Source of the DNA: Actinomycetales bacterium
GTDB taxonomy: Bacteria > Actinomycetota > Actinomycetes > Actinomycetales > Kineosporiaceae
Assembly: GCA_012719445.1 (NCBI GenBank)
Contig: JAAYAH010000190.1
Coordinates: forward strand, 1-64,000
Reading direction: 5' to 3'
Length of the DNA: 64,000 nucleotides
A model generated the notes under the pieces. It was not told where the DNA came from. It saw only the letters and a program-made list of their open reading frames with translations, and searched no databases. Positions 8,349 to 43,344 of the stretch are shown one piece after another. Within the stretch, counting starts at the first letter, position 1. Every line of letters starts with the position of its first letter. The position numbers were made by a program, and so were the translations under genes.

Positions 8349-9100
8349 GAGACAGCACCCTCCGGCTCGGTCGCCCGGACCGCGGCAGGTGCCGGTCCGA
8401 GCCCGGACAGGGCCCGCCACGAGGCGATCAGGTGCACCGCCAGGTACCCGGAGGCCGCGACGAGCAGCACCGCGTACCCGATCCAGAACACCGCCCCTGC
8501 CCCGAAGAACGCCACGAACAGGCAGAGCACCCCGGAGTCGACCGGAAGCTTCGCCAGCGACCGCAGCCCGCCGCCGCCGGTCACCACCGGCTTCGGCGCC
8601 CCCTTGACCCGCCGCAGCAGGTCGGTGAGCAGCCCGCTGGAGAACGTCATCACCGCGACCACCTGGAAGGTGAGCGGCAGCAGGAGCACGGCCGGGTCCA
8701 CGTCGAGGAACCGGTAGCCGGCGACGAGGATCGCGCTGTGCACCGCGACGGACTTGCCGGCGTCCAGGAGGTGGTCGAGCCACTCCCCGACCGGGCCGCC
8801 GGAGCCGCGCAGCCGGGCCAGTTGTCCGTCGGCGGAGTCGAAGACGTAGCCGACGGCCAGCAGCAGGGCCGCCAGCACGCTGGACCAGACCGCGGTCGGC
8901 ACCAGCACCAGGACGGCAAGACCCGCCACCGTGAGCGCCCCGCTGGCCCCGGTGAGCTGGTTCGGGGTCAGCCGCAGCTCGTGCGCCACCGCCGCGACGA
9001 ACCGGCCCGCTGGCCGGTTCACGTACAGCGTGTACGCCGGGACGCCGCGCGACGTCTTCTGCGCCGCCGCGAGCTGGCGTAGGTTCCCCGTGACCGTCAT
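8345..9100 (-). CDS. CDP-alcohol phosphatidyltransferase family membrane protein
   Basis: An integral membrane enzyme (251 aa) that transfers a phospho-alcohol from a CDP-activated donor to a second alcohol. The family motif DG-x2-AR-x8-G-x3-D-x3-D is complete: DGQLAR, then G, D and D in register (…GEWLDHLLD). Several hydrophobic helices follow. It lies between two cytidylyltransferases, overlapping the one downstream by 4 bp. In this context the product is more likely a phosphopolymer or headgroup decoration of the surface glycan than an ordinary phospholipid, but the acceptor cannot be read from sequence. Confidence 0.88.
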   Translation of the reverse strand: MTVTGNLRQLAAAQKTSRGVPAYTLYVNRPAGRFVAAVAHELRLTPNQLTGASGALTVAGLAVLVLVPTAVWSSVLAALLLAVGYVFDSADGQLARLRGSGGPVGEWLDHLLDAGKSVAVHSAILVAGYRFLDVDPAVLLLPLTFQVVAVMTFSSGLLTDLLRRVKGAPKPVVTGGGGLRSLAKLPVDSGVLCLFVAFFGAGAVFWIGYAVLLVAASGYLAVHLIASWRALSGLGPAPAAVRATEPEGAVS

Positions 9101-9212
9101 GACTCCGACCTCACTCCTCGCCGCCGTTGCTGGGGCGTCACCGCCACCTCGCCATCACCAGGTTCCGGGCGGCCTCCGCCACAGCGGACAGGCCCGTCCA
9201 CCGGTGGCTCGT

Positions 9213-9629
9213 TCACTCGTGGAAGACACGCTGCCGGAGCACGGTGCTCGAGATGTGCCGGGTGTACGACAGGTAGACGATATCCACACCGATCTCGGCG
9301 AACCGCTCCTCGATCTCCAACCAACTGGGACTGCCCTTCCAGTCGTCGCCCACGAACACGACGTCGAACTTGAGGTTGTTCCACGCCTCCACCTTGTTCA
9401 TGTTCACCTGCGGCACGACATCATCGACATACCGCACGTTCCCGACGATCTCCATCCGCTCCAGGAAGGGCACGATCGGACGCCGGCCCTTGCGGGACTC
9501 GACCAGCTCGTCGGTGCCAACCCCCACGATCAGGTAGTCGCAACGTTCCCGAGCCCGGCGCAGGATGTTGAGGTGCCCGACATGGAACATGTCGAAGGTT
9601 CCCGGCACGTACCCGATCCGGTTCGTCAT
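9213..9629 (-). CDS. Glycerol-3-phosphate cytidylyltransferase-like protein (TagD family)
   Basis: A 138-aa nucleotidyltransferase with the canonical site GTFDMFHVGHLNILRRA (HVGH intact) and a C-terminal YTRHISSTVLR matching the RTxGISTT element. It would activate a polyol phosphate with CTP. It is first in the leftward cassette with the CDP-alcohol phosphotransferase (112 bp downstream) and the HxGY paralogue. The ATG at 9629 is preceded by GGAGGGG about ten bases upstream. Having two diverged paralogues in one operon suggests two different CDP-alcohols or a heteromer. Confidence 0.87.
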   Translation of the reverse strand: MTNRIGYVPGTFDMFHVGHLNILRRARERCDYLIVGVGTDELVESRKGRRPIVPFLERMEIVGNVRYVDDVVPQVNMNKVEAWNNLKFDVVFVGDDWKGSPSWLEIEERFAEIGVDIVYLSYTRHISSTVLRQRVFHE

Positions 9630-9884: not shown

Positions 9885-12800
9885 TCACCCCGCGGTGAAG
9901 CTCAGCACCAACTGCGGGCGGCCGGACGTCGCCCCCTCACGGGACACCAGCAGGATCGAGTCGTCACCGTCGGGTGAGACCGCCAGGGTGGTCCGCCGGC
10001 CCAGCAGCCCCCGGAACCGGCCGACATCCAACGGGATCGTGGAGGACGTGTTCACCGCCGTGCCCGCCGGGACGGTACCGAGGACGGTCGTTCCCAGAGT
10101 GGGTCTCGTGTCCCAGATCACCCCGGTCTCGGTCCAGTCGTCACCCGCCGTCACGATCGTGTGGCTGCTCCCCGAACTGGCCGCCGAGGACGCGGTGGTG
10201 CGCAGCCGCAGCTCCGCCCCGGCCAGTTCCTGCCCGGCCGGCACCGACGGCAGGTCGAAGCGCAGGTACGCGATCTGCAACGGACTGCTGTCCGCGATCA
10301 TGGTTGTGGAGGTGCCGAAGTTGGTGGTCCGCATCGCGGAGTTGACGTAGGTGTCGGCGGTCGGAGTGAGGGTGAGGATCACCGGCGGTCGCGGCATGGT
10401 GACGCTCACCGCCGCCGACGGCGGCCCGGTGTTGCCCGCCGCGTCGTGGGCGACCACCCGGTAGGACCAGGTGCCCTCGGGGACGCCCGGCTCCGCGAAC
10501 GTCCTCCCGGTGGCCGTGCCCACCTGCGCCGAGTTCGTCAGCGGGTCGCCGGGGGCCGCCGTCCGGTACACCGCGTAGCCGGTGACGGCACGGTTGTCGG
10601 TCGCCGTGGCCCAGGCCAGGTTCGCCGTCTGCCCCGACCGGGTCACCGTCAGCCAGGTAACCGCGGACGGCGGCTCCAGGTCGAGGTCGGCCTCCGGCCG
10701 GCCAGGAAGTGGTCTGCAGCCTCGGCGCCGCTCAGGGCCCGGTGGTAGACCGCGAACTCGTCGACGTCCCCGGCGACGGCGCTCTTCGCCGGACGGTTCG
10801 GCCAGCCGCTCAGCGTGTCGTAGCCGAGCTTCCAGTACCCCGGGTAGGAAGCGTTCGCGGTGCTCGCGCCGGAGGCGACCCGGACGCCGTCGACGTACAG
10901 CCGCATCCCGTCCGGACCCGAGGTGGCGACGACGTGGTGCCACTGCCTGTCGTTGTAGGCACTGGTCGAGGCGATGGTCACCCTCGTCGAGCCGGAGAGG
11001 GTGCCGAAGGTGAGCCGCCCGGTGTCGGTGAGGTAGAGCAGCCGGTCGGTGCGGGTGCTCAGCGAGTTCCGGTACACCGGCGGGGAACTGCCCGGCGGCT
11101 CCCGTTCGTACAGCTCCGTCCTGCGGTCGCCGAACCCGGCGAGCCGGCCCCCGCTCGTGCCCGCGGTCCGGAACCACAGCTCGACCGTGTACTCCGACGG
11201 GCCGGTCATCGCCGGCTCGAAGGCGTTGGTGAAGCTCTCCGCGATCCGGCCGGTGGTGCCGCTGAACCGGACCGAGTTCCCCGACCCGTCGGCCAGGGCG
11301 CTCGGGGCACCGAGGGCGTACCCGTCCGGTGAGACGGTGGTGTAGCCGCGGTCGGCCGTGGCCCGGCGGGCGTTCCCGGAGGAGTCCAGCATCCGCGCCC
11401 GGTAGTAGGCGGCCCCGTTGCGGGTCGCCGCCTGCTGCTCGGCCGTCTCGTCGAGGCGCCAGTACAGGGCCGGCGAGTCCGCGAGCACCGCGGCGGGGTA
11501 CCCGGTGTCGGTGGCCGCCGTGGTCACGGTGACGGCGGGGCCCTTGAGGCTGGTGTTCTCGCCGTCGGGTTCGAGGACCCGGAGCCGGTACTGGACCACC
11601 TGCCCCGGCTCCACCCCCGTGTCGAGATAGGAGAGCTGCCCGCGGGTCCACTCCCGCGAGCGCGCGGTGACCGTGTGGACGAGGGTGGTGTCCCGGTACA
11701 GCTCGTAGGTGAGGGCGTCCTCGTCCCGGTCGTAGGCGGCGATCCAGCTCACCACGTTCGCGCCGGCCCTGGTGGCCAGGACCGTCGGCACCGGGGGCGA
11801 CGCCGCGCGGAGGTCCGCCCGGCCGAACCGGGTCAGTCCGCGCTGGGCGACGGCGTTCACCGTGCTGAACTCCCCGCCGACCCAGAGGTGGTCGCCGGAG
11901 ACGGTGAGCGCCCGCGGCCCCTGGGGGGCGCTGCCGACGCCGTCGTTGGTGTCGGGGAAGAAGGTGGGGATGAGCTCCTTCGTCACCACGTCCTGGCCGG
12001 TGAGGTGGTTGCGGATCCCGTCCTCGAGCCACCCGCCGGGCGTGGTGGAGCACTCGTGGGCGTGGTGCCCGGCGTAGAGCACCCCCCGGTCGACGACGAG
12101 GGCCTGGGTCGCCCCGAGGCAGTAGTCCTTCCAGACCAGCTCCCCGGTGGCGAGGTCACCGGCGATCCGGCCGTCGAAGACGCCGTACCCGCTGCCCTCG
12201 TCCCCGACGTAGAACGACGTCGCGTCCCGGGTGATCGCCTTGGGCACGGAGTTCGCGGGGATCCAGCCGGGGAAGAACTGGACCACGGCGAGCGAGGTCG
12301 GGTCGACGGCGACGAGGCCCTTGTTGGTGGTCCCGTTCACCGTGGCGAAGTCACCGCCGACGAGCACCTTGCCGAAGTCGGGGGCTGCCTGCACCGCCCG
12401 CACCGGGGCGTCGAGGGTGACCGTCCCCGACATCAGGGTGCCGTTCGCGGTCAGCCCGGCGAACCGGGTCCTGGTCCTGCCGTCCATCCTGGTGAAGTCG
12501 CCGCCGACGTAGAGGGCCGTCGACGACGCCGAGAGGGCGCGCACCGCCGCCGAGACGTCGGGCCTGCGGAAGGACGAACTGGGCAGCAGCGCGCAGGTGC
12601 TCGGGTTCAGCGCGACCAGGCCGGCGACCCCGACCCCGCCCACCCGTCCGAACGAGCCGCCGACGTAGAGCCGGTCACCGGCCGGCGAGGCCTCCAGGGC
12701 GAACACCCTGGCCCGACCGCTGGAGGAGGTGATCGAGGGATGGCACGGCAGCACCTCGCCCGTCGCGGCGTCGAAGGCCGCGAGGTTGTTGCGGGTCACC

Positions 12801-13072
12801 TCCCTGGAGTCCCCCACGGCCGCCCCCGGCGGGCGCACCTTGGTGAACTCGCCGCCCGCGTAGACGACGCCGCCGACGGACTCCAGCGCCCACACCGGGC
12901 CGTTGGTCTGCCAGGTGGACAGGGCGTCGGCGCTGAAGGTCGCGGGCAGCGTGCCCGCGGCGGCCAGGGCGGAGGGCGTGGCGAGCTCGGCACCGGGCCC
13001 GAGGGGGGTGGCTCCTGTCGCGACGACCAGCGCCCCGATCGCCGCCACCCGCAACCGACGCCGTGCGTTCAT
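9885..13072 (-). pseudogene. Exported beta-propeller / LamG / Fn3 / DNRLRE surface protein, frameshifted
   Basis: Paralogue of the giant protein at 15669. The ATG at 13072 opens a frame with signal peptide MNARRRLRVAAIGALVV… and ribosome site GAGGAC. Next come Rax2/kelch-like propeller repeats (GGxF units), an Fn3-like segment, and a LamG domain starting at YWRLDE with the core DRQWHHVV. That frame stops at 10649. Homology then continues in the -1 frame from about 10697 down to the stop at 9885, covering one Fn3 (NRAVTGYAVYR) and a C-terminal DNRLRE/CBM96-like domain (ADTYVNSAMRTTNFG). The break lies in CCGGCCGG at about 10694-10703: adding one CCGG unit, or a single G, restores alignment with the paralogue. 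It may be a true mutation, a slippage-prone phase switch or a sequence error. As read, the protein lacks its last Fn3 and carbohydrate-binding domain. Confidence 0.82.
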
Positions 13073-13181
13073 CGTCCTCACCCTCCCCGAACGACCCGTT
13101 TGGTCACGGCCCGAAAACGTTAAGGTAAGGCAGCTCAGCGGGGGCGTGCCGGGGAATCGAGGGCAACGGCCCACAAGGGCA

Positions 13182-14402
13182 TCAGCCGGTCGTCCGAACG
13201 ATGCTGATCCGGAGGTGCCACCACCCGACAGCGGCCCCGACCCCCGCGGAGACCGCCAGCGCGAGGGAGACCGCCCGGACCTCGCCGACCGCGAGAGCCG
13301 CGGTCACTCCGAGGGCGGCCGTCAGCATCGCGACAACGGTCTTCTGCCGTATCAGCCGACCCGCCTCACCGCGCACCTTCAGGCCCAGCGTCCAGGCCGC
13401 TGCCAGGCCGACCCCGACGTACTCCAGCACGGTGAACGGCAGCACCGAGCGGGCTCCGTCCCAGGTGTCGCCCAGCAACGCCGTCCCCCACCGGTCGGGG
13501 AGCGCGAGCACCATCGCCCCCCAGACGATCACGACGGCCAGCACCCCCGTTGCGGTGAGCAGGCAGAAGCGCCGGTCGGCCGAGCGGGAACGACGGGCCA
13601 GCGCCGGCGTCAGCGCCAGGTTGACGAAGGCGAGCAGGACGTTCAGCGGTCCGACGAGCGTGCCCGCGCCCCGGATGCTGCCCGCCGCGGCGTCCGAGAT
13701 CGACGCCCCGACGGCCGAGACCACGAGGATGGACGCTCCCTGCATCACCACGGTGCCGTAGGCCACCGAGCCGCTCGTGCGGTCGATCGACCGCAGGGCA
13801 CGGACCCCCGCCCGGAGATCCGGGCGGACCCGGAGCCCGACCAGGGCGACGAGCAGCGCGGCGACCGCCGCCGCCGTCCAGGCGCTGAGCAGGACGGCCG
13901 CCCCCAGCCGGTTCGCCACCGGGAAGATGGCGGCCATGGCGAGCAGCCAGGTCAGGTCGGAGGCCAGCGCGACCCCCGGCCGCCGGGAGGCCACCGCGCC
14001 GAACCGGAGCGCGTCCTGCAGGCAGACCACCGGGGTGGAGACCGCGACCAGGCAGGTCAGCACGGCGTCGCGGCCATCCGTCACCGCCCACGCCGGCACC
14101 ATGACCACGAGCAGGAGCAGGGGCGAGAGCACCGACAGCGCCCCCAGCGAGGCGGCCGTCTCGGCCCGCACCGCCTCCCGCGTGGTGCGCAGCGAGATCG
14201 ACGTCCCGAACCAGGACCGGCTCACCCCGAGGGCGGAGACCAGGATGGCGTAGGCGATGGCGAACCGGCCGAACTCCTGCTCGCCCAGGGCGCGCGCCAC
14301 CAGGACCACCGCGAGCAGGTTGGACAGGCTGGAGGCGCCCTGGTCGGCGACCACCACGAGGCGCTGGCGCACGGCTCGTACCGCCCCCGTCGGCTGACGC
14401 AC
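13182..14402 (-). CDS. Polysaccharide flippase-like membrane protein (Wzx/MOP superfamily)
   Basis: A 406-aa, almost wholly hydrophobic protein with about 12 predicted helices and the charged loops typical of Wzx/oligosaccharide flippases. It starts near the N-terminus with VVVADQGASSLSNLLAVVLV, a common flippase opening (first helix with Q/G/S polar residues). Expected role: moving lipid-linked repeat units across the membrane. I chose the GTG at 14402 because the open frame further upstream overlaps the glycosyltransferase gene, whose stop is 15 bp away. It is probably co-transcribed with that GT4 gene. A Wzx call by topology and context is good, but sequence similarity among flippases is low. 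Confidence 0.72.
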   Translation of the reverse strand: MRQPTGAVRAVRQRLVVVADQGASSLSNLLAVVLVARALGEQEFGRFAIAYAILVSALGVSRSWFGTSISLRTTREAVRAETAASLGALSVLSPLLLLVVMVPAWAVTDGRDAVLTCLVAVSTPVVCLQDALRFGAVASRRPGVALASDLTWLLAMAAIFPVANRLGAAVLLSAWTAAAVAALLVALVGLRVRPDLRAGVRALRSIDRTSGSVAYGTVVMQGASILVVSAVGASISDAAAGSIRGAGTLVGPLNVLLAFVNLALTPALARRSRSADRRFCLLTATGVLAVVIVWGAMVLALPDRWGTALLGDTWDGARSVLPFTVLEYVGVGLAAAWTLGLKVRGEAGRLIRQKTVVAMLTAALGVTAALAVGEVRAVSLALAVSAGVGAAVGWWHLRISIVRTTG

Positions 14403-14416
14403 CCGGCGGGCCCGGC

Positions 14417-15571
14417 TCAGGGCGCCGGGACGCGCCCGCGCCCCGCCGGGATCGCCGCGAGGTAGGACTCCTCGAGCCTCCGGCCCACGGCCTCGATGCT
14501 CAAAGAGCGATCGACCAGGGCTCGGCCGTTCTCGCCGCTTTTCCGGGCCAGGGCGGGGTCGGCGAGCAGGCCCTCGACGGCGGCGGCGAGAGCGGCCGGG
14601 TCGTCCGCGGGGACGATCGTCCCGGCACCCGCCTCGGCGATCATCGGGGCGAGCCCGCAGGCCTCGGTCACCACGACGGGAACCCCGACGGACATGGCCT
14701 CCACGACCACCATGGGGAAGGCGTCCCGGGCTGAGGGCAGCACGAACACCGACGCGCGGGCGATCCGGGCCAGGCTGCCTGCCATGGGCGCGACGCCGCC
14801 GTAGGACACCCGGGTCAGCTCCGGCCGGCGCGCGATCGCCGCCGTGACCGCGGGCAACTCCCCCTCGTCCGGCCCCAGCAGGGTGAAGTCGGCGTCGACC
14901 CCCCTGGCCAGCAGCAGTTGCGCGGCCTCGACGAAGCGCACCGGCCGCTTGCACTCGTGCAGCCGGGCCAGGTAGAGCACCTCCGGCGGGCCGTCCGCCC
15001 CCTCGGCGGGCAGGTCGGCGGTGGGGACGCCGTTGGGCAGGATCTCCACCGGCAGGTCACCGAACCCCAGCGCCCTGACGCCGTCGAGCTCCTCACCGGT
15101 GAGCACGAAGCCGGTGGCCGCGCGCCGCATCGCCCCGCGCACCAGCAGCCGGTCGAAGGCCCACGCCGACCGCCGCGGCGAGGGCACCACCATGCCGTGG
15201 GTCTGGACCACGTACGGCACCCGGAGCAGGCGCAGCAGCTGCGCCGCCGGGGCCGTGGTCAGGTCCCGGGCCAGGTGCACGTGACAGACGTCGAACGACC
15301 GGCCGTGGGTGAGCAGCCACGCGTGCAGGCCGGGGGTCCAGTGGTAGGCGAAGCTGCGCCCGCCCGCGAGGTCGAGGGACCGGAAGAGCCGGCGGGACGT
15401 CGCGCCGAGCACCCGGGCCGGATCCCTGCGGGCCGCGGAGTCCGCCCCGGCGACGAGCACCGCCTGGTGACCGCGCCGGTTCAGCTCGTCGACCTGGTTG
15501 ACCGCCACCCGGAGCGGTCCGCCGTAGCTGGCCTCCCCGTCGACGAGGTTGACCACATGGGCGATCCTCAC
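14417..15571 (-). CDS. GT4-family glycosyltransferase
   Basis: A retaining glycosyltransferase of GT-B fold (384 aa), expected to add one sugar to a lipid-linked repeat unit on the cytoplasmic membrane face. The N-terminal Gly-rich loop is GEASYGGPLRVAVNQ. The C-terminal half has the GT4 hallmarks VLYLARLHECKRP and the E-x7-E region FPMVVVEAMSVGVPVV. The GTG at 15571 is preceded by GGAGAGG with about 9 bases spacing. The flippase gene follows 14 bp downstream on the same strand. Donor and acceptor are unknown. Confidence 0.87.
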   Translation of the reverse strand: MRIAHVVNLVDGEASYGGPLRVAVNQVDELNRRGHQAVLVAGADSAARRDPARVLGATSRRLFRSLDLAGGRSFAYHWTPGLHAWLLTHGRSFDVCHVHLARDLTTAPAAQLLRLLRVPYVVQTHGMVVPSPRRSAWAFDRLLVRGAMRRAATGFVLTGEELDGVRALGFGDLPVEILPNGVPTADLPAEGADGPPEVLYLARLHECKRPVRFVEAAQLLLARGVDADFTLLGPDEGELPAVTAAIARRPELTRVSYGGVAPMAGSLARIARASVFVLPSARDAFPMVVVEAMSVGVPVVVTEACGLAPMIAEAGAGTIVPADDPAALAAAVEGLLADPALARKSGENGRALVDRSLSIEAVGRRLEESYLAAIPAGRGRVPAP

Positions 15572-15586
15572 GCCCGCCCTCTCCTC

Positions 15587-15646
15587 TCCCCGTGACCGGG
15601 CGTGCCCCCGGTCCTGTCCCCGTGACCGGGCGTGCCCCCGGTCCTG
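15587..15646. repeat. Tandem duplication, 30-bp unit x2
   Basis: A 30-bp unit is duplicated exactly at 15587-15616 and 15617-15646. Each copy contains TGACCGGGCGTGCCCCCGGT. The second copy forms the left arm of the terminator hairpin of the next gene, so the duplication places half of that hairpin just upstream of the GT4 start. Confidence 0.85.
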
Positions 15647-15659
15647 TGGGGGCACGCCC
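15628..15659 (-). terminator. Strong hairpin terminator of the giant surface-protein gene
   Basis: A perfect 12-bp stem (GGGCGTGCCCCC at 15628-15639 with its complement at 15648-15659) and 8-nt loop lie 9 bp beyond the stop at 15669. It should separate the giant gene from the GT4 start at 15571. There is no U-tract. Confidence 0.75.
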
Positions 15660-15668
15660 GTCGGGCGG

Positions 15669-18600
15669 TCAGGTGTAGCTCAGCACCAGCACCGGCCTGG
15701 CCGCGGTCGACGCGAAGGTACGGGTCGCGAACTGGGCACTGTCGGCGCCCGCCATGGTCAGCGCGAGAGTGGTGCTGCCGGTCAGCTCACGCAGCGGTGC
15801 CGGGTCGAGCATGATCTGGTAGGTCGTGCCCATCGCCGCCACCTCCGGCAGGGTACCCAGTACCGCGCCATCCGTTGCGGGGCGGTCGTTCCAGGTCACC
15901 GTGGCCTCGTCCCAGGCGTCGGAGCCCAGTCGCACCGTCACCGGATCGGGGGTGAGGGCGACGGTGGACGCGGTGGACCGCAGGCGCAGGGTGGCCCCGG
16001 TGAGCCGCAGCCCGGACGGCGCCTGCGGCAGTTCGAACCGCAGCAGGGCCCTGGTGTCGGGGGTGCCGTCGACGAGCATGGTGGTCGCACCCCCGAACGC
16101 CGTGGTCTTGGCCCCCGCGTTGACGTAGGTGTCGGCCGTCGCGGTGAGCGTCACCTCCTGCGGGTCACCCCTGGTGACGGTGACCGGCACCGCAGGGGAC
16201 CCGGCGCTCGCGTTGCCGGCCTCGTCCCGGGCGATGACCCGGTAGTGCCAGGTGCCCGCGGGCACGTCGGACTCGGTTGCCGAGGTGCCCGAGACCGAGG
16301 CCACCCGGGTGGCCGAGGACGGCGTGAAGCCGGCGGTGCTGCCACGGTGCACCTCGTAGCCGGTGACGCCGCGGTTGTCCGTCGCTGCGGACCAGGTCAC
16401 CGCCACCTCACCGCCGTCCGCCGTGACCGTCACGTCCTCCGGCACCGAGGGCGGGGTGGTGTCCGGGGCCAGCACCTCGACCGGCTGGGAGGCACCGGCA
16501 TCGCTGCGGTTGCCCGCGGCGTCCACCGCCACCACCTTGTAGGTCCAGGTGCCCGGAGGCACCGTGGCCTCGGTCGCCGAGGTGGAGGTGGTCTGTGCCA
16601 CCCGGTTGGCGGTCGTCGGGGTGAACCCCGACCCCTCGCCGCGGTGGATCTCGTATCCGGTCACACCGAGGTTGTCGGTGGCCGCCTCCCAGGTGACCTC
16701 GGCCGAGGTGTCCTGGACCTGGGCGGTCACGTCACCGGGGACCGAGGGCGGGCGCCGGTCCACCGCCGACTCCAGACCGCCGACCTGCTCCATGGCGAGC
16801 GCCATCCGCTGGGCGAGGTAGGCGTGTCCGGCGTCCGTCGGGTGCACCCCGTCGGTGCCGACGTAGGCGTCCGCGTTGCCGTCGCCGACCGGTGCGGCGA
16901 TGGTGCCGGTGCCGGTGATCCAGGGCCGCTGCCGGGCCACGAGCTGTCCGGCGGCGTCGTACACCCGCCCGGTGATCGGCGAGATGAACGGGATCTCCTC
17001 GGACGCCGCGACGGAGCGCAGGGTGGCGTCCGTGGTGACCAGGGTGTCCGGTGGTGCCCCGGTGGGCGACCACGGGCCGACCACGAAGAGCTGCGCGTCG
17101 GGAGCGTCCGTCGCGATCGCGGTCACGGTCTGGCGCACCGCGGCCTGGAGGTCGGACTGGGACCGGGTGTGGTCGTTGTAACCGGCCCAGAGGACCACGC
17201 CGTCGGGAGCGTGACTGGCCACGTCGTCGGCGGCCCGTGCCGGGATGGCCACCGAGGCGCCCGGGTCGAGGTACCCGGTTCCGCCGATCGACTGGTTCCA
17301 GGTGTCACCCCAGCCGAGGTAGGCCCCGGCCCGGAGCACCCAGGTACCCGCGCCGGCACCGCTGTTCTGCCCGGAACCCCCGCTGATGGAGTCGCCGAGG
17401 ACGATCCACCGACCCGGCCGGTTCGGGGACTGGGTCAGGGTGCTGCCCGCGGGGACGTACACCCCACCGAACGGCGTGTAGGAGGTCTCCAGAGTGATCC
17501 GGCGGGTGGCCGCCGACCCCAGGTCAACCTTGTACAGCAGCCGGCTGCCCGGCTTGGTGCCGCCGACCGGACGCGGGGTCGCCGTGGTCCGCTGGCCGTC
17601 CACCTTCACCTGGATCGTCTGCGACGTGCTCAGGTACTTGGTGAAGACCTCGAAGACCGGGGCGTTGGTGGTGAACTCCACCGAGTACACCGGCTGGGAG
17701 CCCCGCGCGCTCGGGTACCGCGACGACGGCTGCAGGAACAGCGTGTCGGGGTAGGTGGTGCCGAACGAGAAGCCCGTGGCGCCGGTGAACCGGAACCGGG
17801 CGTCGTTCGGGCGCACCAGGGTCGCGCCGTCGATGGTGGTGTCGACTCCCGACGCCGGATGGGTCGAGGTGAAGATCGCCCCGTCCATCGGGGTGTCCGG
17901 GCCGGTCAGGTCGAGGTCGCTGCCGACGCGCCGGGTGTTCGCCTCCACCCCGGCCGACGGAGTGCCGACGTTGCCCGCGGCGTCCCTGGCGAGCACCCGG
18001 TAGTACCAGGTGCCGTCCGGGACGGCCGTCTCGGTGTACCGGGTGCCCAGGGTGGTGCCGACGAGGGTCTCCGGGCTCGGCGTGGCCGAGGTGGACGGGA
18101 GCCGGTGCACGTCGTAGCCGGTGACGGCGGTGTCGTCCGTCGACGGCTGCCAGGAGAGGTCGACCTCGTCGTCGAAGACCTCGGCGGTGACCCGCCGCGG
18201 CGCGCTGGGCGCCTCGGTGTCGACGACGCTGACCTCACGTTCGGCGGAGGCGGCGCTGGTGCTGCCGACGCCGTCGACGGCGACGACCCGGTAGTACCAG
18301 GTCCCCGGCGGGACGCCGGTCTCGTCGAAGCTCGCCCAGTCGGTGTTACCGACCAGGGTCGAGTCGTCCGGGGTGAAGCCGGAGGTCTGCGACCGGTGCA
18401 CCTGGTACCCGGCGACGAGCATGTCGTCGGTGGACGCGGTCCAGGTCAGCGAGACTCGCGAGGACCGGGTGGTCGCGGTCGGCACGCCCGGCCGCGACGG
18501 GTCGGCGGTGTCCGTCCAGCCACTCGGCCGGCCCTGCCGGAAGTGCTCGAAGATCCGGGCCGAGGTGAGCTGCTTGTCGTAGATGCTCACCTCGTCGATG

Positions 18601-20756
18601 CCGCCGGAGAAGTAGTTGCTGCTCGGCCTGTTCGGCCAGCCGCTGCCGATGGTGTCGCCGCCGACCCGCCACCAGCCGAAGTAGGCCTGGCCCGAGGTCA
18701 CCGTGTTCGCGCCGACCTGACGGCCGTCGACGTACAGCCGCATCCCCTGGGGGCCGGTGGTCCCGACCACGTGGTGCCACTGCCCGTCCCGGTAGCCGCT
18801 GGGGCTGATGACGGTCTGGGGGCTACCGGGATAGTTCCCGTACACCACGTTCCCGGCGTTGGTCAGGTAGAGGTGCCGGTCGTAACTGCTGCTGTTACCG
18901 GTGCGGCTGTTGCCGTAGCCGATGAGCTTGCCGCCACGGTTCGAGGTGGTCCGGAACCACAGCTCGACGGAGTAGTCGGAGACCGCGATCACCCGGTCGG
19001 GGTCCACGGTGTTCACCCGGCTCCTGGAGCCGTTGAAGGTCGCCGACAGCCCGTCCCCGTCGGCCAGGGCGCTGTCTCCGCCGAGGGTGACGTTGGCGTA
19101 GCTGCCGAGGTGCCCGCCGCCGGAGCTGTCGACGGCCGTCGTCCCTTCGGTCTCGTCGAGCCGCCAGTGGGTGTGCGGGGCGTCCGCGGACACCGCTCCG
19201 GCGTAGGGCAGGTCGGTCGTCGCGGCGGTCGCGGTCACCGCGGCACCCTTGGGGCTGATGTTGTCACCGTCGCTGGTCCGGATCCGGTACGAGGCGGTGA
19301 CGCCGCCGCCGACGGTGTCGGTGTAGGACATCCGGGGCCGCGACCACTCGCGGGAGCGGACGGTCTGCACGGAGATCGGCGCTGCCGTGCCCTCGCGGAA
19401 CAGCTCGTAGGTGACCTTGTCGTCGTCCAGGTCGTAGCCCGCCGTCCAGCTCACCGTGATCTTCCCAGTGCTGTGGCTGGCCGCCGTGAGCACCGGGGCG
19501 TTGACGTACCCGGTGTCCGGTTCGTCGGCGAACCGGGTGATCCCCTGCTGGGGGACGCCGTTGACGGTGGTGAACTCACCGACGACCCACAGGTCCCCGC
19601 CGCCGAAGACCATGCCTCGCGGTCCGATCGCCTCCCCGCTGGCGACCCCGTCGTTGGTGTCGGGGAACCAGGGCAGGATCGTGGTCGGGTCGTCGACGGA
19701 CTGGGCCAGCAGGTGGTGACGCTTCCCGTTGGGGAACCCGCCGGGGGTCAGGCTGCAGTCGTGGGTGTGGTGGCCGCTGTAGAGGACGCCGTCCCTGGCC
19801 GCGAGTGCCTGGGTGGCGCCGAGGCAGAGATCCTTCCAGACCATCTCGCCGGTGGACAGCACGCCGCCGATCCGGCCGTCGAACACCCCGGTGCCGGTGC
19901 CCTCGGCGCCGACGTAGAAGCGGTCGCCGTCCCGGGTGAGGACGTGCACGACGGAGTTGTTGGGGATCCATCCGGGGTAGCTCTGGACGATGGCGCCGGT
20001 GTCGGGGGAGAGGGAGACCAGACCGCGGTTCGCCACGCCGTTCACGGTGGCGAAGTCACCGCCCACGACCACCTTGCCGACCTCGGGGGCCGCGATCAGG
20101 GCCCGGACGGTCGTGTTGAAGGTAGCTGTCGCCGCGGTGAGCGCACCGGCCGAGGTGACAACGGCGAAGCGGCCACGGGTCTGGCCGTCGACCTGGCCGA
20201 ACTCACCGGCGAAGTACACCCGGTCGGGCGTCGCGGAGATCGCCCGCACCACCCCGTTGACGGCCGGCCGGCGGAAGGAGGACGTCGGGACCAGCGCGCA
20301 GGTCGCGGTGTCCAGGGCCACGAGGTTGGCGACCCCGGTGGTGCCCACGCGGCCGAAGCTGCCGCCGACGTACAGCCGGGATCCGTCCGGCGAACCCTCG
20401 AGGGTCCGAACCCACGCCGTCCCGCTGCTGCGGGTGAAGGACGGCGCACAGGGCAGGAGATCACCGGTCACGGCGTCGAAGGCGGCGAAGTTGAGCCGCT
20501 CCACCTCGCCAGCACCACCCGTGGCGACGCCCGGCGGGCGGACCTTGGTGAAGCTGCCGCCGACGTAGACGACATCGCCCACGGCCTCGACGGTCCAGGC
20601 GACTCCGTTCGTCTGCCAGGTTGGACGCGGGTCCGCCGAGATGGTGGCCAGGCTCTCCCATGCCTCCTCCGCCGCGGCGGGGGTGGCGAGGGACGCCACT
20701 CCGAGAGCCGGCACCACCACAGCGCCGACGGCCATCGCGCTCACCCAGCGGCGCAT
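15669..20756 (-). CDS. Giant exported beta-propeller / LamG / Fn3 protein with embedded SGNH hydrolase
   Basis: A 1695-aa secreted protein. The ATG at 20756 has GGAGGG five bases upstream and gives a clean signal peptide (MRRWVSAMAVGAVVV…ATPAAA). Order: Rax2/kelch-like propeller (about 35-470, repeated VGGxF), Fn3-like, LamG (about 560-730; HWRLDE, DGQWHHVV), two Fn3, a linker beta domain, and an SGNH/GDSL esterase (about 1115-1310). The esterase has all blocks: GDS in WIVLGDSISGG, the block II Gly in SIGGTGY, GYND, and DGVHP for the Asp-x-x-His pair. Two more Fn3 and a C-terminal DNRLRE/CBM96-like domain (ADTYVNAGAKTTAFG) follow. A possible role is binding and deacylating a surface glycan. 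No LPXTG or C-terminal anchor is visible. It is a paralogue of 9885-13072, and a strong hairpin follows its stop. Confidence 0.88.
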   Translation of the reverse strand: MRRWVSAMAVGAVVVPALGVASLATPAAAEEAWESLATISADPRPTWQTNGVAWTVEAVGDVVYVGGSFTKVRPPGVATGGAGEVERLNFAAFDAVTGDLLPCAPSFTRSSGTAWVRTLEGSPDGSRLYVGGSFGRVGTTGVANLVALDTATCALVPTSSFRRPAVNGVVRAISATPDRVYFAGEFGQVDGQTRGRFAVVTSAGALTAATATFNTTVRALIAAPEVGKVVVGGDFATVNGVANRGLVSLSPDTGAIVQSYPGWIPNNSVVHVLTRDGDRFYVGAEGTGTGVFDGRIGGVLSTGEMVWKDLCLGATQALAARDGVLYSGHHTHDCSLTPGGFPNGKRHHLLAQSVDDPTTILPWFPDTNDGVASGEAIGPRGMVFGGGDLWVVGEFTTVNGVPQQGITRFADEPDTGYVNAPVLTAASHSTGKITVSWTAGYDLDDDKVTYELFREGTAAPISVQTVRSREWSRPRMSYTDTVGGGVTASYRIRTSDGDNISPKGAAVTATAATTDLPYAGAVSADAPHTHWRLDETEGTTAVDSSGGGHLGSYANVTLGGDSALADGDGLSATFNGSRSRVNTVDPDRVIAVSDYSVELWFRTTSNRGGKLIGYGNSRTGNSSSYDRHLYLTNAGNVVYGNYPGSPQTVISPSGYRDGQWHHVVGTTGPQGMRLYVDGRQVGANTVTSGQAYFGWWRVGGDTIGSGWPNRPSSNYFSGGIDEVSIYDKQLTSARIFEHFRQGRPSGWTDTADPSRPGVPTATTRSSRVSLTWTASTDDMLVAGYQVHRSQTSGFTPDDSTLVGNTDWASFDETGVPPGTWYYRVVAVDGVGSTSAASAEREVSVVDTEAPSAPRRVTAEVFDDEVDLSWQPSTDDTAVTGYDVHRLPSTSATPSPETLVGTTLGTRYTETAVPDGTWYYRVLARDAAGNVGTPSAGVEANTRRVGSDLDLTGPDTPMDGAIFTSTHPASGVDTTIDGATLVRPNDARFRFTGATGFSFGTTYPDTLFLQPSSRYPSARGSQPVYSVEFTTNAPVFEVFTKYLSTSQTIQVKVDGQRTTATPRPVGGTKPGSRLLYKVDLGSAATRRITLETSYTPFGGVYVPAGSTLTQSPNRPGRWIVLGDSISGGSGQNSGAGAGTWVLRAGAYLGWGDTWNQSIGGTGYLDPGASVAIPARAADDVASHAPDGVVLWAGYNDHTRSQSDLQAAVRQTVTAIATDAPDAQLFVVGPWSPTGAPPDTLVTTDATLRSVAASEEIPFISPITGRVYDAAGQLVARQRPWITGTGTIAAPVGDGNADAYVGTDGVHPTDAGHAYLAQRMALAMEQVGGLESAVDRRPPSVPGDVTAQVQDTSAEVTWEAATDNLGVTGYEIHRGEGSGFTPTTANRVAQTTSTSATEATVPPGTWTYKVVAVDAAGNRSDAGASQPVEVLAPDTTPPSVPEDVTVTADGGEVAVTWSAATDNRGVTGYEVHRGSTAGFTPSSATRVASVSGTSATESDVPAGTWHYRVIARDEAGNASAGSPAVPVTVTRGDPQEVTLTATADTYVNAGAKTTAFGGATTMLVDGTPDTRALLRFELPQAPSGLRLTGATLRLRSTASTVALTPDPVTVRLGSDAWDEATVTWNDRPATDGAVLGTLPEVAAMGTTYQIMLDPAPLRELTGSTTLALTMAGADSAQFATRTFASTAARPVLVLSYT

Positions 20757-21111
20757 CGCGCCCTCCATCCGTCTCGCCGGAGACCTCGTGCCAGGCCTCT
20801 TGCCGTTCTCGCCCGACCGCACGGCCCCCGGCTCCGCGCGCCACGTCACGTTACGAAAGTTCAACACAGTGCGAGGACCCTTCGCCAGAGATCGTCCCTC
20901 GGACAGCCACAACCAACTCCGTAGAGTTACTCGTCAATACTGATAGTGACGACCCGCGGGGGGCGCGTCCGCCTGTCACCAGAAGGGATGTTCGCACCAT
21001 GCACCTCGAACTAGAGCATTCCGGGTGTCACCAGGCCCTACTCTCGAGCGCGGCAGACCTCACGTGACACCACAAGCAGAGCCGAACCTTACCGAGCCGA
21101 GAGGAGTCCAG
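20757..21111. other. Divergent intergenic region
   Basis: These 355 bp separate the leftward giant-protein gene from the rightward acetyltransferase. Composition is more AT-rich around 20840-20950, where promoters for both sides probably lie. I could not identify convincing -35/-10 pairs, and no gene is evident. Confidence 0.5.
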
Positions 21112-21642
21112 GTGCGGTCATTGGCAAGCTTCACCGGAACTGGTTACGACCGGGGGCGTTCCTTCATTCACCAGATTGCCTGGTATGTGGTGATGAATGT
21201 GTTCTTCGTCCGCTGGTGGTTCCCGGCCCGGTTCCGTCCCGCCCTGCTCCGGGCCTTCGGAGCCTCCGTCGGCAGCGGGGTGCTGGTGCGCTCGCGGGTA
21301 CGGGTGCACTGGCCGTGGAAGCTGACCATCGGGAACGACTGCTGGATCGGCGAGGGAGCCTGGCTGCTCAACCTGGAGCCGATCGTCCTCGGCCACGACG
21401 TGTGCGTCTCCCAGGAGGCGCTGCTGTGCACCGGCAGCCACGACCACCGCGACCCCGCCTTCGAGTTCGACAACGCCCCGATCTCCGTCGCGGACGGCGG
21501 CTGGGTCGCGACCCGCGCCGTCGTGCTCAGGGGGGTGCGGGTCGGCAGGGAGTCCATCGTCGCCGCCGGGGTCACCGCGCACCGGGACGTGCCGGACGGG
21601 CACGTCCTGCTCCCGTCCGGTCTGCGGGCCCTCGACGGCTGA
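21112..21642 (+). CDS. WcaF-like left-handed beta-helix O-acetyltransferase
   Basis: A 176-aa acetyl-CoA-dependent acyltransferase of the LbH (hexapeptide) superfamily, similar to colanic-acid WcaF, expected to acetylate a sugar of the surface polysaccharide. Features: a hydrophobic N-terminal helix (IAWYVVMNVFFVRWWF), imperfect hexapeptide turns, the conserved CTGSHDHRDPAFEF segment with its catalytic His, and the downstream VLRGVRVGRESIVAAGV turns. The GTG at 21112 is chosen for AGGAG five bases upstream. It stands alone, with a strong terminator 2 bp past its stop. Confidence 0.88.
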   Translation: MRSLASFTGTGYDRGRSFIHQIAWYVVMNVFFVRWWFPARFRPALLRAFGASVGSGVLVRSRVRVHWPWKLTIGNDCWIGEGAWLLNLEPIVLGHDVCVSQEALLCTGSHDHRDPAFEFDNAPISVADGGWVATRAVVLRGVRVGRESIVAAGVTAHRDVPDGHVLLPSGLRALDG

Positions 21643-21643
21643 C

Positions 21644-21692
21644 GGCGAAGGGCCCCTGGCCACCCTCGGAGGGTGACCAGGGGCCCTTCGCC
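21644..21692. terminator. Bidirectional terminator between convergent genes
   Basis: A 16-bp perfect stem (GGCGAAGGGCCCCTGG at 21644-21659 with its complement at 21677-21692) carries an inner 6-bp stem CACCCT/AGGGTG. It starts 2 bp after the acetyltransferase stop and lies 46 bp from the stop of the convergent GH71 gene, so it can serve both. Confidence 0.85.
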
Positions 21693-21737
21693 TGTCCACG
21701 GCTCACCGGAGCTGCCGGTGGGCGCCCAGCCGCACGG

Positions 21738-23894
21738 TCAGCGCAGGCTGCTCACCGCGTGGTACTCGAGATCCTGCACGTAGGGCCGCGAGGTGACCCG
21801 GTGCGGGGAGGTCACCTGCGTGGTCACCGCGCCGTTCCGGACGACCTTCCCCGAGACCGATCCCGTCGCCAGGGGGAAGACCTTCCTGCTCATCCCGGCC
21901 GGAGCGTCCCAGGTGTGCGTCGCCGAGCCGACGGTGACGGTGACGGTCGCGGGCTTGGTGAGGAAGACCAGCGCCTCCACCTGGTTCCGCGGCGACACCG
22001 CCCCCGACCTGATCTTCATCACCTTGGTCTGCGCGAAGCTGGGGGCTGCGTTGTACGTCTGGGTGCGATGCACGAGGTACAGCCCGTCCCGCTTCACCGC
22101 CGGCCGGCTTCCCGTCTTCCACCGCGCCAGGTAGTACGACGAGATGTCGAGGTAGGCCCACCCGTGCGACTGGGAGGGCGAGATCGAGGTGCCCTCGGAG
22201 TAGTCGTTCCAGGTCGGGATCTGCACCCAGTCCGCGTCCGAGGCGATCACCCCGGTCCAGCCGTCGCGCAGGGTCTCCGTCGCCCCGGCCTCGTCGTAGA
22301 TGCCCTGGTTGGGTCGCACGTCCTGAATCCGCACCGGTGCCATCCACAGCTTGCCCATGGCTTTGGCCTTGGCCGCGTGCTTGGCGGTCCTGGACGCGGA
22401 GTCGGGATGGGCGGTCGCCCAGTGCGAGAAGCCGTAGCTGATCCCGGCGTAGTCGTCGGCGTACTGCTGCCAGTCGAGGAAGGTGGGCACGAAGGCGACC
22501 GGCGTGTTGTGGGTGTTCTTCATGGTGGCCAACCAGCTCTTCCACCACGACGCCGACTTCGCCTCCGCCTTGAACGGTGAGATCACCAACCGGCCGTCGG
22601 CCAGTTTGAACGCGGCGGGGTACTTCGCGAGCCGGGCCATGGCGGAGGCCAGGGCCGCGGACGAGTCGTCGTCCAGGGTGGTCATGTCCGGCATGAGCAT
22701 GATCTTGAAGTCGGGGTCGACCCGGTGGGCCGCCTCGAGGAGCTCGATGCAGCGGTCCCAGTTCCGGCTGGTCAACGACAGGATGTCGACGTTGAAGCCG
22801 TCCAGGCCCGCGGCGATCGCCTGGCTGACCTCAGCCTCGAGGTCCTTGGCCACGAAGTCACCGGACAGGGCCGAGCGACCGAGGGGCCGGTCCCGCATCA
22901 GGCCGCCGTAGGCCCGGTGCTTGCCGTTCTCACCGTCCGGCGGGATCAGCTCCCTCGCGTAGTAGTCCGCGGACGCCGGTTTGTTGTCGTGGGATCGGGG
23001 GAACGGGGTGAAGTAGTGCGCGAAGACGAGCCGCTTGGAGGACTGCAGGGTGCTGGTCGACGGCATGTCGAAGGGGCGGACCCCCGCGGCCTGCTGGATG
23101 GTGCGCTGCGTCGTCGTGGTGGTGGTCGTCGTCGTCGCGGTCGTCGTCGCCGAGGTCGCCACCTGCACCTGGAGCACCGGCGGGTTGGCCGACTCACGGC
23201 TGGCCAGCTGCAGCTGTGCGTTGTGCACCCGGTGCAGCAGCTCGATCGACGTCTCCGTCGTCGTGGAGATCGCCTCCGGGCTCAACGGCACCGTCACCCA
23301 CTGGCGGGCACCGGGGACGGCGACCTGCCGGGAGACGGCCTTGGCCTGGTAGGCCGGCCGGGTCCGCGCGGTGACGGCGGCCTCCTGCCAGTCGTTGGCG
23401 AGCGGGTGGACCTCGAGCCCCGCCTCGGCGACGGCCACCTTGAGCACGTAGACCCGCAGCGAGGCGCCGACGACCTGCTTGCCCGCGGGAATCATGGGCT
23501 TGGTGTCGAACCGGAGGAAGGCGCGGTTCTCGCTCGTGGTCGCGTAGAGCCAGGCCCGGTCACCCCGGTTGGCCGTCGGCCGGGAGGCGACAACGTAGGT
23601 GTCCGCAACCGGCCGGCCCTCCACCGTCTGCACGGGCGCTGTCGTCCCCGAGACCGCTGCCCCCGGACCCACGTCGGCCGCCTGGACGATCGTGCCGGAC
23701 GAGGATCCGGGTGACCTGCCACCCGGCCAGCCCAGCGCCAGGTGGGCGTAGGCGCCTGCCCCGACGGCGAGGGCCGGGACCAGGAGAAGGCTCACCCGCA
23801 GCAGGCGCCGCCTGGGCCTGCCTCGCCTGCTCGCCGAACCGGGGACTCGAACATGGCGACGGGGAAACGGACCGGCGTCGTCTGGAGGTCTCAA
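21738..23894 (-). CDS. Exported GH71 endo-alpha-1,3-glucanase-like protein with DNRLRE-type domain
   Basis: A 718-aa protein with an Arg-rich N-terminus and a single TM or signal helix (LLRVSLLLVPALAVGAGAYA). A DNRLRE/CBM96-like beta-sandwich follows (VADTYVVASRPTANRG…RAFLRFDT), then a Thr-rich linker and a GH71 catalytic domain opening with VFAHYFTPFPRSHDN and containing GLDGFNVDIL. GH71 enzymes cleave alpha-1,3-glucan; a C-terminal beta domain ends the protein. The frame is open to 24005. I prefer the TTG at 23894 because AGGAG lies five bases upstream; the GTG at 23897 is an alternative. It could modify the polymer made by the locus or attack foreign glucans. Confidence 0.8.
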   Translation of the reverse strand: MRPPDDAGPFPRRHVRVPGSASRRGRPRRRLLRVSLLLVPALAVGAGAYAHLALGWPGGRSPGSSSGTIVQAADVGPGAAVSGTTAPVQTVEGRPVADTYVVASRPTANRGDRAWLYATTSENRAFLRFDTKPMIPAGKQVVGASLRVYVLKVAVAEAGLEVHPLANDWQEAAVTARTRPAYQAKAVSRQVAVPGARQWVTVPLSPEAISTTTETSIELLHRVHNAQLQLASRESANPPVLQVQVATSATTTATTTTTTTTTQRTIQQAAGVRPFDMPSTSTLQSSKRLVFAHYFTPFPRSHDNKPASADYYARELIPPDGENGKHRAYGGLMRDRPLGRSALSGDFVAKDLEAEVSQAIAAGLDGFNVDILSLTSRNWDRCIELLEAAHRVDPDFKIMLMPDMTTLDDDSSAALASAMARLAKYPAAFKLADGRLVISPFKAEAKSASWWKSWLATMKNTHNTPVAFVPTFLDWQQYADDYAGISYGFSHWATAHPDSASRTAKHAAKAKAMGKLWMAPVRIQDVRPNQGIYDEAGATETLRDGWTGVIASDADWVQIPTWNDYSEGTSISPSQSHGWAYLDISSYYLARWKTGSRPAVKRDGLYLVHRTQTYNAAPSFAQTKVMKIRSGAVSPRNQVEALVFLTKPATVTVTVGSATHTWDAPAGMSRKVFPLATGSVSGKVVRNGAVTTQVTSPHRVTSRPYVQDLEYHAVSSLR

Positions 23895-24190: not shown

Positions 24191-25156
24191 TCAGTGCCGG
24201 AAATCGGTCACGTGGTCGCGGAACCAGGTGTAGGTCTGCCGGACCCCCTCGTCGAGAGGGATCCGCGCCTTCCACCCGAGTCCGGACAACCGGGACACAT
24301 CGAGCAGCTTCCGCGGCGTCCCGTCGGGCTTGTCGGTGTCCCACTCGATGACGCCCCGGTACCCCACGACGTCCGCCACGAGCTCGGCCATCTCCCGGAT
24401 GGTCACGTCCTCCCCCGTGCCCACGTTGACCGTGCTGTCGTCGTCGTAGTTCTCCAGCAGGAACAGGCAGGCCGCGGCCAGGTCGTCGACGTGGAGGAAC
24501 TCCCGGCGCGGGGTGCCGGTGCCCCAGCAGGTCACCACGGGCGCGTCCGACTCCCTCGCCTCGTGGAAGCGGCGGATCAGCGCGGGGAGCACGTGCGAGC
24601 TCTGCAGACCGAAGTTGTCCCCGGGACCGTAGAGGTTCGTCGGCATCGCCGAGATGTACCGGACCCCGTACTGCCGGCGCAGCGCCTGCACCTGGAAGAT
24701 CCCGGCGATCTTCGCGATCGCGTAGCCGTCGTTCGTCGGCTCCAGCGGCCCGGTGAGCAGCGAGTCCTCGGTGATCGGCTGTGGAGCGAACTTGGGGTAG
24801 ATGCAGCTCGACCCGAGGAAGAGCAGCCGCTCGGCACCGAACTCGCGGGCGGCGTCCATGACGTTGACCTGGATGCGCAGGTTGTCACTGAGGAACTCGG
24901 CCGGGTAGGTCGCGTTGGCGAGGATGCCGCCGACCCGGGCCGCGGCGAGGAGGACCACCTGCGGCCGCTCGGCGGAGAAGAAGGCCCGGACCGCCTCGCG
25001 GTCACGCAGGTCCAGCTCGGACGACGACCGCCCGACCAACCGGGTGAACCCCTGCTCGCCGAGGGCCCGCCACAACGCCGAACCGACCAGGCCACGGTGG
25101 CCGGCCACGTAGACCACGGCGTCACGGTCGAGAGGGTGCACACGCTGCGTCGTCAT
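24191..25156 (-). CDS. fcl: GDP-L-fucose synthase
   Basis: An NADPH-dependent epimerase/reductase (321 aa) of the extended SDR family that converts GDP-4-keto-6-deoxy-mannose to GDP-L-fucose. The cofactor loop is VAGHRGLVGSALW. The active-site Ser is in LGSSCIYPKFAPQPI, which is diagnostic for Fcl/WcaG, and Tyr/Lys are in YAIAKIAG. The downstream PTNLYGPGDNF and GTPRREFLHVDDLA are also typical. The partner GDP-mannose 4,6-dehydratase (gmd) is not in this window. It supplies fucose for the neighbouring polysaccharide genes. Its start region faces the divergent dehydrogenase gene across 532 bp. Confidence 0.92.
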   Translation of the reverse strand: MTTQRVHPLDRDAVVYVAGHRGLVGSALWRALGEQGFTRLVGRSSSELDLRDREAVRAFFSAERPQVVLLAAARVGGILANATYPAEFLSDNLRIQVNVMDAAREFGAERLLFLGSSCIYPKFAPQPITEDSLLTGPLEPTNDGYAIAKIAGIFQVQALRRQYGVRYISAMPTNLYGPGDNFGLQSSHVLPALIRRFHEARESDAPVVTCWGTGTPRREFLHVDDLAAACLFLLENYDDDSTVNVGTGEDVTIREMAELVADVVGYRGVIEWDTDKPDGTPRKLLDVSRLSGLGWKARIPLDEGVRQTYTWFRDHVTDFRH

Positions 25157-27038: not shown

Positions 27039-27046
27039 CTCCAACG

Positions 27047-33099: not shown

Positions 33100-33259
33100 C
33101 TCAACCTCCAGGAGTCCCCGTCGCCGGACGGCCAGCCCGCCGCGCCTCAGGCACGCGCCCGCCGCGACCTCGCTCCTCGCGACCTCGCCACGCCACGTAC
33201 CCACGTCATCCTAGGTGCGCGAGCCGTGGGAACGCCTGCAACTCGGCCATTCGCCCCGG

Positions 33260-33985: not shown

Positions 33986-34032
33986 CGCGCCGCTCCTCCC
34001 TGTCGCCGGGTCCGCGCCGGGTGCGCCCTCCC

Positions 34033-36638: not shown

Positions 36639-36684
36639 GCAGCCGGGGCGCGGTGCCCGGAAAATCCCTGGACGCCCCCCTCGG

Positions 36685-43268: not shown

Positions 43269-43344
43269 TACGTCTCCTGACCGGTCGGCAACAGCCGGTG
43301 CCTTTTGCACCGCTCGGTGTCGGTTCCGGAGGGATCCCTGAGCG

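Follow-up and report, generated by a model that had tools for sequence, protein, structure and literature searches.

Why does the polysaccharide locus of an actinobacterium encode three exported proteins that share one domain on different bodies? The question is raised by a 64,000-nucleotide stretch (the window) of contig JAAYAH010000190.1 from a member of the Kineosporiaceae (assembly GCA_012719445.1), in which three genes, here called genes 1 to 3, had been proposed from the sequence alone to form a dedicated set of extracellular binders and modifiers marked by a DNRLRE/CBM96-like domain. Our analysis indicates that the window probably holds an exopolysaccharide locus of the Wzx/Wzy-dependent kind that also encodes exported matrix proteins of its own, in which propeller-LamG proteins would hold the polymer while a GH71 enzyme and an esterase would trim it. 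Domains, catalytic residues, gene neighbourhood and co-distribution were computed here, and from them we infer polymer binding, cleavage and polymer chemistry.

All three proteins carry a CBM96/DNRLRE domain scoring above the cut-offs of PF24517 (26 bits) and NF033679, and their bodies agree with the original prediction: a propeller-type part and LamG in gene 1, the same with FN3 and GDSL/SGNH domains in gene 2, and GH71 in gene 3 (Table 1). As judged by eye, the N-termini are signal-like in genes 1 and 2, and gene 3 starts with an arginine-rich hydrophobic stretch. Gene 1 was found to contain both the propeller/LamG and the CBM96 parts ascribed to it, but not in the single reading frame assumed. 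Read from 13174, it is interrupted by 10 stops, with propeller-LamG in open reading frame (ORF) 10649-13174, FN3-CBM96 in ORF 9885-12053 and a frame change at about 10680-10720. Since both parts occur in one frame in relatives (e.g. locus L034), either the gene is broken or the draft sequence contains an error at the frame change. Gene 1 is a paralogue of gene 2 (50% identity over 810 amino acids covering propeller, linker and LamG), and therefore the three CBM96 copies do not represent three independent arrivals. The Pfam propeller-type matches of both proteins are weak. The gene 2 translation includes GDS, GxND and DxxH, which we take to be SGNH-type motifs; using the window domain as a phmmer query against the relatives, an SGNH domain fused to propeller-LamG was found in the window only, and no solved-structure relative of this domain was obtained at E 0.01.

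A scan with the alignment of the two paralogues yielded 121 relatives, of which 80 were kept; exclusion of 24 non-actinobacterial ones resulted in 56 actinobacterial loci from Streptomyces, Actinacidiphila, Arthrobacter, Cryobacterium, Mycetocola, Microbacterium, Cellulomonas, Aeromicrobium and other genera. Neighbouring genes were clustered, representatives were named by Pfam, and 14 marker profiles were built, with which all loci were scored within 10 kb. At least four of the 14 polysaccharide-locus markers were present at 38/56 loci, compared to 0/19 control stretches of 20 kb drawn at random from their contigs (Fisher test, 6e-8), where a single marker was seen in 2/19. As the markers had been taken from these 56 loci, we also scored 19 loci from the order of the window that had no part in building the marker set. 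These originate from 20 regions hand-picked from the 52 propeller genomes described below, four of them for GH71, with L133 (a duplicate of L083) not counted. Here, two or more markers were detected at 16/19 loci versus 0/19 controls (Fisher test, 9e-8). Homologues located mostly away from polysaccharide genes, which the original prediction had named as speaking against it, were thus not what we observed. Similarly, a propeller-LamG protein of Actinomyces oris has NCBI-style annotated neighbours comprising a sugar transferase, flippase, CDP-alcohol transferase, NodZ family protein, GT4 enzyme, chain-length protein and acyltransferase. The propeller-FN3-LamG core is therefore a frequent companion of exopolysaccharide loci across actinobacteria.

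Several observations weigh against this association. The markers were built from the very 56 loci that they score, and 18/56 loci remain below four markers. Ten of these 18 are Actinacidiphila-type short-form loci outside polysaccharide loci (L053-L055, L057-L060, L062, L067, L085); the others are L047, L049 and L079, which are Streptomyces loci with the propeller alone, and L040, L064 and L076-L078 with LamG, three on stretches of 5-14 kb. Among the 19 order-level loci, four or more markers were found at 4/19, three of which had been picked for GH71, and the threshold of two markers was set after the counts had been seen. Without the three GH71-picked loci, at least two markers are present at 13/16 and at least four at 1/16. 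Furthermore, many relatives are devoid of CBM96.

The original prediction is partly supported: homologues lie mostly among polysaccharide genes, but the feature marking this association is the propeller-LamG core and not CBM96. CBM96 as the defining part was rejected, as relatives without it retain both the core and the locus. The domain is absent by Pfam from the Actinomyces oris protein and from L146, and by a custom CBM96 profile from 16 further order-level loci. Propeller-LamG relatives, whose C-terminal modules vary, commonly carry one to three CBM96 copies at the C-terminus. Besides the window genome itself, 15 of its relatives gave CBM96 matches (16/58 in total); among those 15, the CBM96 protein of G024 was the only one that also matched the propeller/LamG queries within the 3.4-kb stretches compared, the domain being carried mostly by other proteins. 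A PF24517 search of the 5.4-Mb own genome revealed a single additional copy, which is weak (C244:9006-9422). The conserved part is the propeller/FN3/LamG core, with CBM96 as an exchangeable tail.

The distribution of GH71 offers a second line of evidence. The GH71 domain of gene 3 matches the solved structure 8yfh (E 6.6e-21), and the motif WNDYSE, with the catalytic Asp and Glu three residues apart, is present in 11/11 locus GH71 proteins including that of the window; it is equivalent to Asp265/Glu268, the reported catalytic pair of AnGH71C (PMC12394665). Across 248 genomes of the window's order, GH71 was detected in six and the propeller in at least 52 (reduced from 54, because G012 and G205 match LamG only), and all six GH71 genomes contain the propeller (P 6.7e-5; 3.2e-4 without the own genome). 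Both genes lie less than 7 kb apart in five genomes, namely the window and four others at 2.4-6.6 kb, while G024 is too fragmented. The polymerase subfamily of the window occurs in at least 10/248 genomes, including five of the six with GH71, where it is located about 8 kb or less from the propeller gene (P 2.0e-7; 4.1e-6 with the own genome omitted; 8e-4 by genus). When only propeller genomes are considered, GH71 was present in 5/7 with this subfamily versus 1/45 without it (P 4.7e-5). Within the order of the window, GH71 thus goes together with one polymerase subfamily. Such a pattern is expected if GH71 cuts the product of that polymerase.

In the 56-locus set, GH71 was found within 10 kb of the propeller gene at 10/56 loci. 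Whole-genome counts, made for 20 of the 56 loci (L031-L052 minus L047 and L049), showed a single GH71 copy in 16/20 propeller genomes, and 10/16 of these genes are located within 20 kb of a propeller-type gene. Streptomyces anandii (L153, G063:C14) encodes a divergent pair of GH71 and propeller-LamG-CBM96 genes with no other marker in 20 kb. A dedicated pairing is challenged by the remaining 6/16 GH71 genes (four from Streptomyces, two from Arthrobacter), which have no propeller in about 20 kb around them and no CBM96 on the contig, by a second GH71 gene on another contig of G118 (Pseudactinotalea, the genome of L083), and by five order genomes with the polymerase subfamily and no GH71, three without a detected propeller and two with the propeller far off. 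In addition, up to four propeller and six polymerase candidates were scored per genome. This makes each count a lower bound and, together with the relatedness of the genomes, renders the P values optimistic.

An AlphaFold model of the propeller-LamG core (57 sequences) reached a mean predicted local distance difference test score (pLDDT) of 92.1. Its propeller part resembles WD40-type propellers with Z scores of 30.2-32.1 and root-mean-square deviations of 2.2-3.5 over 271-310 residues (among the 50 matches listed), which is a generic similarity. Among the matches listed, Foldseek and VIA gave generic propellers and LamG-like domains, indicating no function from the fold, and Bap1/RbmC was not among these matches. 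Eight residues, Gln100, Arg125, Trp359, Cys363, His382, His384, Cys386 and Arg460 (P0001 numbering), are invariant in alignments of 35 and 57 sequences, and Arg246 is nearly so; the invariant positions are located in the propeller and linker region.

Regarding the CBM96 tails, the gene 1 copy aligns to solved beta-sandwich CBM96 structures (8wab, E 4.7e-6; 7vbo, E 1.9e-5), the gene 2 copy aligns to 8wab at E 1.3e-4 and weakly to 7vbo at only 0.044, and the gene 3 copy matched no solved chain up to E 1. In the TM6-N4 CBM96 of Dp0100 (7VBO), alginate is reported to be held by Lys10, 22, 25, 27, 31 and Arg36 (PMC9971899). With a residue offset of 16, which we set and verified on eight matching letters, 6/6 of these residues are either substituted or opposite a gap in the copies of genes 1 and 2, the gene 2 alignment being weak; Tyr159 lies outside the alignment. 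We therefore rejected alginate bound in that way as an unlikely ligand. The missing residues bear on specificity and not on membership in the CBM96 family. CBM96 is N-terminal to GH71 in the window and C-terminal in L131 and L132 (G078, G145). In a tree of 44/64 rows, from which 20 had been dropped to thin near-copies, a split supported at 98/98 lies between the N-terminal GH71-CBM96 copies and the C-terminal ones in G078 and G145, the latter grouping with propeller-borne CBM96 (96/91). The two positions suggest two GH71-CBM96 fusion events, although a single clade was not rejected by the approximately unbiased test (p 0.252).

Components of a Wzx/Wzy-type locus, namely Bac_transf, Wzz and GT4 enzymes, were found at about 7.9-43.4 kb of the window (Table 1). 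Of the neighbours named in the original prediction, the glycosyltransferase was supported by a GT4 profile and the flippase as a flippase-like ORF, while no acetyltransferase was detected among the ORFs scanned over this interval. The flippase-like ORF had no Pfam or NCBIfam match; tblastn relatives occur at 14/79 propeller loci (one duplicate counted). Likewise, no Pfam family matched the membrane protein at 28213-30165. Its model (32 sequences) has a mean pLDDT of 74.9 with a disordered N-terminus, and the best structural matches were RodA, RodA and WaaL (Z 8.0, 7.6 and 7.0; next 5.1). The predicted RodA/WaaL-like fold is as expected for a repeat-unit polymerase, but Z scores this low are not proof, and values of 8 or less may merely reflect a common arrangement, which counts against the assignment. 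For the relative L033, a TIGR04370 match remained below cut-off.

Table 1. Features of the exopolysaccharide locus and of the three CBM96-bearing genes (positions in the window).
Feature	Position	Strand	Basis or remark
CDP-alcohol phosphatidyltransferase-family enzyme	8345..9100	-	
Cytidylyltransferase	9213..9629	-	second at ~7932-8340
Gene 1, exported propeller-FN3-LamG with FN3-CBM96 tail in other frame	9885..13072	-	core match 10691-13072
CBM96/DNRLRE of gene 1	9900..10373	-	PF24517 88.1 bits; NF033679
LamG (Laminin_G_3) of gene 1	10721..11209	-	Pfam
Beta-propeller of gene 1	11810..12973	-	
Putative Wzx-like flippase	13182..14417	-	nine hydrophobic segments, simple hydropathy script; start uncertain
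GT4 glycosyltransferase	14417..15655	-	Pfam
Gene 2, exported propeller-FN3-LamG-FN3-SGNH-FN3-CBM96	15669..20756	-	
CBM96/DNRLRE of gene 2	15678..16157	-	PF24517 84 bits
SGNH/GDSL esterase domain of gene 2	16821..17402	-	Lipase_GDSL_2 56.2 bits
LamG of gene 2	18552..19016	-	profile match
WD40-like beta-propeller of gene 2	19503..20678	-	AlphaFold model; VIA Z 30-32
Gene 3, N-terminal hydrophobic anchor or signal, CBM96 and GH71	21738..23894	-	N-terminus by eye
GH71 domain of gene 3, WNDYSE catalytic dyad	21822..22850	-	PF03659 125.8 bits, cut-off 34
CBM96/DNRLRE of gene 3	23163..23624	-	PF24517 64.5 bits
GDP-L-fucose synthase-like protein	24191..25156	-	476.5 bits, below cut-off 500
Nucleotide-sugar dehydrogenase	25689..27038	+	
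NAD-dependent sugar epimerase/dehydratase	27035..28015	+	
Putative Wzy-like repeat-unit polymerase (RodA/WaaL-like fold)	28213..30165	+	model
Wzz chain-length determinant	30285..31526	-	
GT4 glycosyltransferase (WcaI-like)	31654..33204	-	
Initiating sugar-phosphate transferase (Bac_transf)	41751..43388	-	

The CDP-alcohol transferase showed weak matches to inositol-phosphate types and is flanked by two cytidylyltransferases (7932-9629). Its family was detected at 24/57 loci and that of the cytidylyltransferase at 9213-9629 at 21/57, and this gene set suggests a phosphodiester decoration of the polymer. Relatives of GH3, of a UDP-sugar dehydrogenase and of a TrmB-like gene (33260-34072, named by eye) were found at 0/79 propeller loci; for the nucleotide-sugar dehydrogenase at 25689-27038, too, no relative turned up in the vicinity of other propellers. 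A conserved chromosomal site near prs, rplY and pth was considered and rejected, these genes being present at just 4, 4 and 6 of 79 loci. A sulfated polymer was considered as well: CysN, CysD and CysQ-like genes are located at 38537-41567 within the sugar locus; relatives of CysN and CysD occur at 0/79 propeller loci, and no sulfotransferase was noticed in the general scan of the locus ORFs. Sulfated polymers are suspected for the Actinoplanes cluster wps-1 (PMC13390465). The window further encodes a MazF/PemK-like toxin with a small ORF upstream (36428-37296) and, at 2377-7683, a 1768-amino-acid fusion protein that combines Ser/Thr kinase, AAA ATPase, GAF and GGDEF domains.

When carriage by phages or plasmids was considered, matches to the propeller-LamG queries were obtained in seven phage records and 11 plasmid records, most of them distant or limited to LamG. 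An unverified faecal phage record (L151; MT835675.1, 13787-15991) has a propeller-LamG gene whose product shares 34.8% identity with gene 2, and reflects either mis-binned DNA or phage carriage. On the 11-kb Arthrobacter alpinus plasmid pRK01 (L152; 8955-11130), the propeller-LamG match is in three pieces across two short hypothetical genes and looks decayed.

Based on these components, the following course can be proposed for the window. A polymer, perhaps fucose-bearing, would be initiated by the Bac_transf enzyme and assembled by the glycosyltransferases; Wzx would then flip it, and the Wzy-like protein would carry out the polymerisation. The exported propeller-LamG proteins would bind it via the propeller and/or LamG and may cross-link it or display CBM96 and esterase modules on it. 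The GH71 protein, presumably anchored on the polymer by its own CBM96, could cut it and thereby set chain length or release polymer. Acyl groups on the polymer may be stripped off by the gene 2 SGNH domain.

The hydrolytic functions could instead serve foraging, with the GH71, esterase and CBM96 proteins breaking down foreign alpha-glucan, for example of fungal cell walls, and a locus placement that is merely historical. Characterised GH71 enzymes are reported to cleave alpha-1,3-glucan (PMC12394665), the 6/16 GH71 genes located elsewhere fit such a role, and a LacI-family gene is present in 7/10 of the Actinacidiphila-type short-form loci. However, no sugar ABC transporter or LacI gene was detected among the ORFs scanned at 7.9-43.4 kb of the window, and foraging does not predict that GH71 tracks a polymerase subfamily, as it does in the own order. 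We therefore regard foraging as unlikely.

Alternatively, the propeller-LamG proteins might function generally as surface adhesins or as wall proteins, being encoded on the same exchangeable island as sugar genes but having no contact with the polymer. Polysaccharide loci are variable islands, the relatives differ in their C-terminal modules, and some lie outside polysaccharide loci. Nevertheless, proximity to polysaccharide genes is kept in many genera and extends to pairing with one glycan-cutting enzyme family, which makes mere neighbourhood quite improbable. Finally, the eight invariant residues and the nearly invariant Arg246 would also be compatible with a core that is itself an uncharacterised polymer-modifying enzyme rather than a binder. 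As no catalytic family matched the propeller, whose matches are generic WD40 folds, and as a disulphide may link the two Cys, with the remaining residues perhaps binding sugar, we give little credence to an enzymatic core. An exopolysaccharide locus with its own matrix proteins remains the reading that we prefer.

To our knowledge, exopolysaccharide matrices of actinobacteria are little characterised. It is conceivable, and we put this forward tentatively, that the loci described here represent an undescribed, actinobacteria-wide matrix system in which GH71 is dedicated to depolymerising one polymer and forms a pair with a polymerase subfamily, and propeller-LamG proteins with exchangeable tails are an independently reached Gram-positive counterpart of the Bap1/RbmC double-sided tape. 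If true, beta-propeller-based protein/polysaccharide matrices would have arisen in Gram-positive bacteria too, and it could be read from the genome which polymerase, depolymerase and polymer-binding protein belong together, so that linkage types could be guessed from sequence and specific probes and enzymes obtained for each polymer. From the GH71-polymerase pairing, one would predict that the exopolysaccharide, which perhaps contains fucose, has a linkage of the alpha-1,3 type.

In line with the original prediction, which had recognised no described system here, no description turned up in our searches of the open-licence literature: with subscription journals mostly outside their reach, these searches gave no prior account of the propeller-LamG family or of the GH71/polymerase link. 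The nearest experimental work found concerns the imp, wps-1 to wps-3 and gsf clusters of Actinoplanes missouriensis, which are likewise actinobacterial exopolysaccharide loci, some with embedded or adjacent GH5 and GH26 (PMC12691653, PMC13390465). In contrast to the window, propeller, LamG, GH71 and CBM96 are unmentioned in the available main text, a distinction drawn from the papers and not from genomes. Gene 3 agrees with the GH71 alpha-1,3-glucanases in family, catalytic dyad and CBM96 partner, and GH71-CBM96 fusion proteins have already been published (PMC12394665), whereas the available text of that study mentions neither a position within an exopolysaccharide locus nor a link to a polymerase subfamily or to propeller-LamG proteins. 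The CBM96 domains belong to the same family as that of Dp0100 by Pfam and NCBIfam and, for genes 1 and 2, by alignment; unlike 7VBO, these two copies have not kept the alginate-binding Lys/Arg, and the gene 3 copy did not align (PMC9971899).

With respect to function, PelA provides a precedent for a polymer-trimming glycoside hydrolase of an exopolysaccharide system that is encoded alongside the machinery making its substrate, although it belongs to a different enzyme family and a different kind of cell envelope (PMC9894940). Bap1 and RbmC of Vibrio cholerae are exported multidomain proteins tied to one exopolysaccharide, with a conserved beta-propeller that is reported to bind the exopolysaccharide of their own matrix and with other domains that vary (PMC10102183). 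Their propeller is eight-bladed and combined with beta-prisms, whereas the propeller described here is WD40-like, with seven blades as judged from the matches, and is combined with LamG, FN3 and CBM96. Both PelA and Bap1/RbmC are functional precedents and not claimed homologues of the proteins described here.

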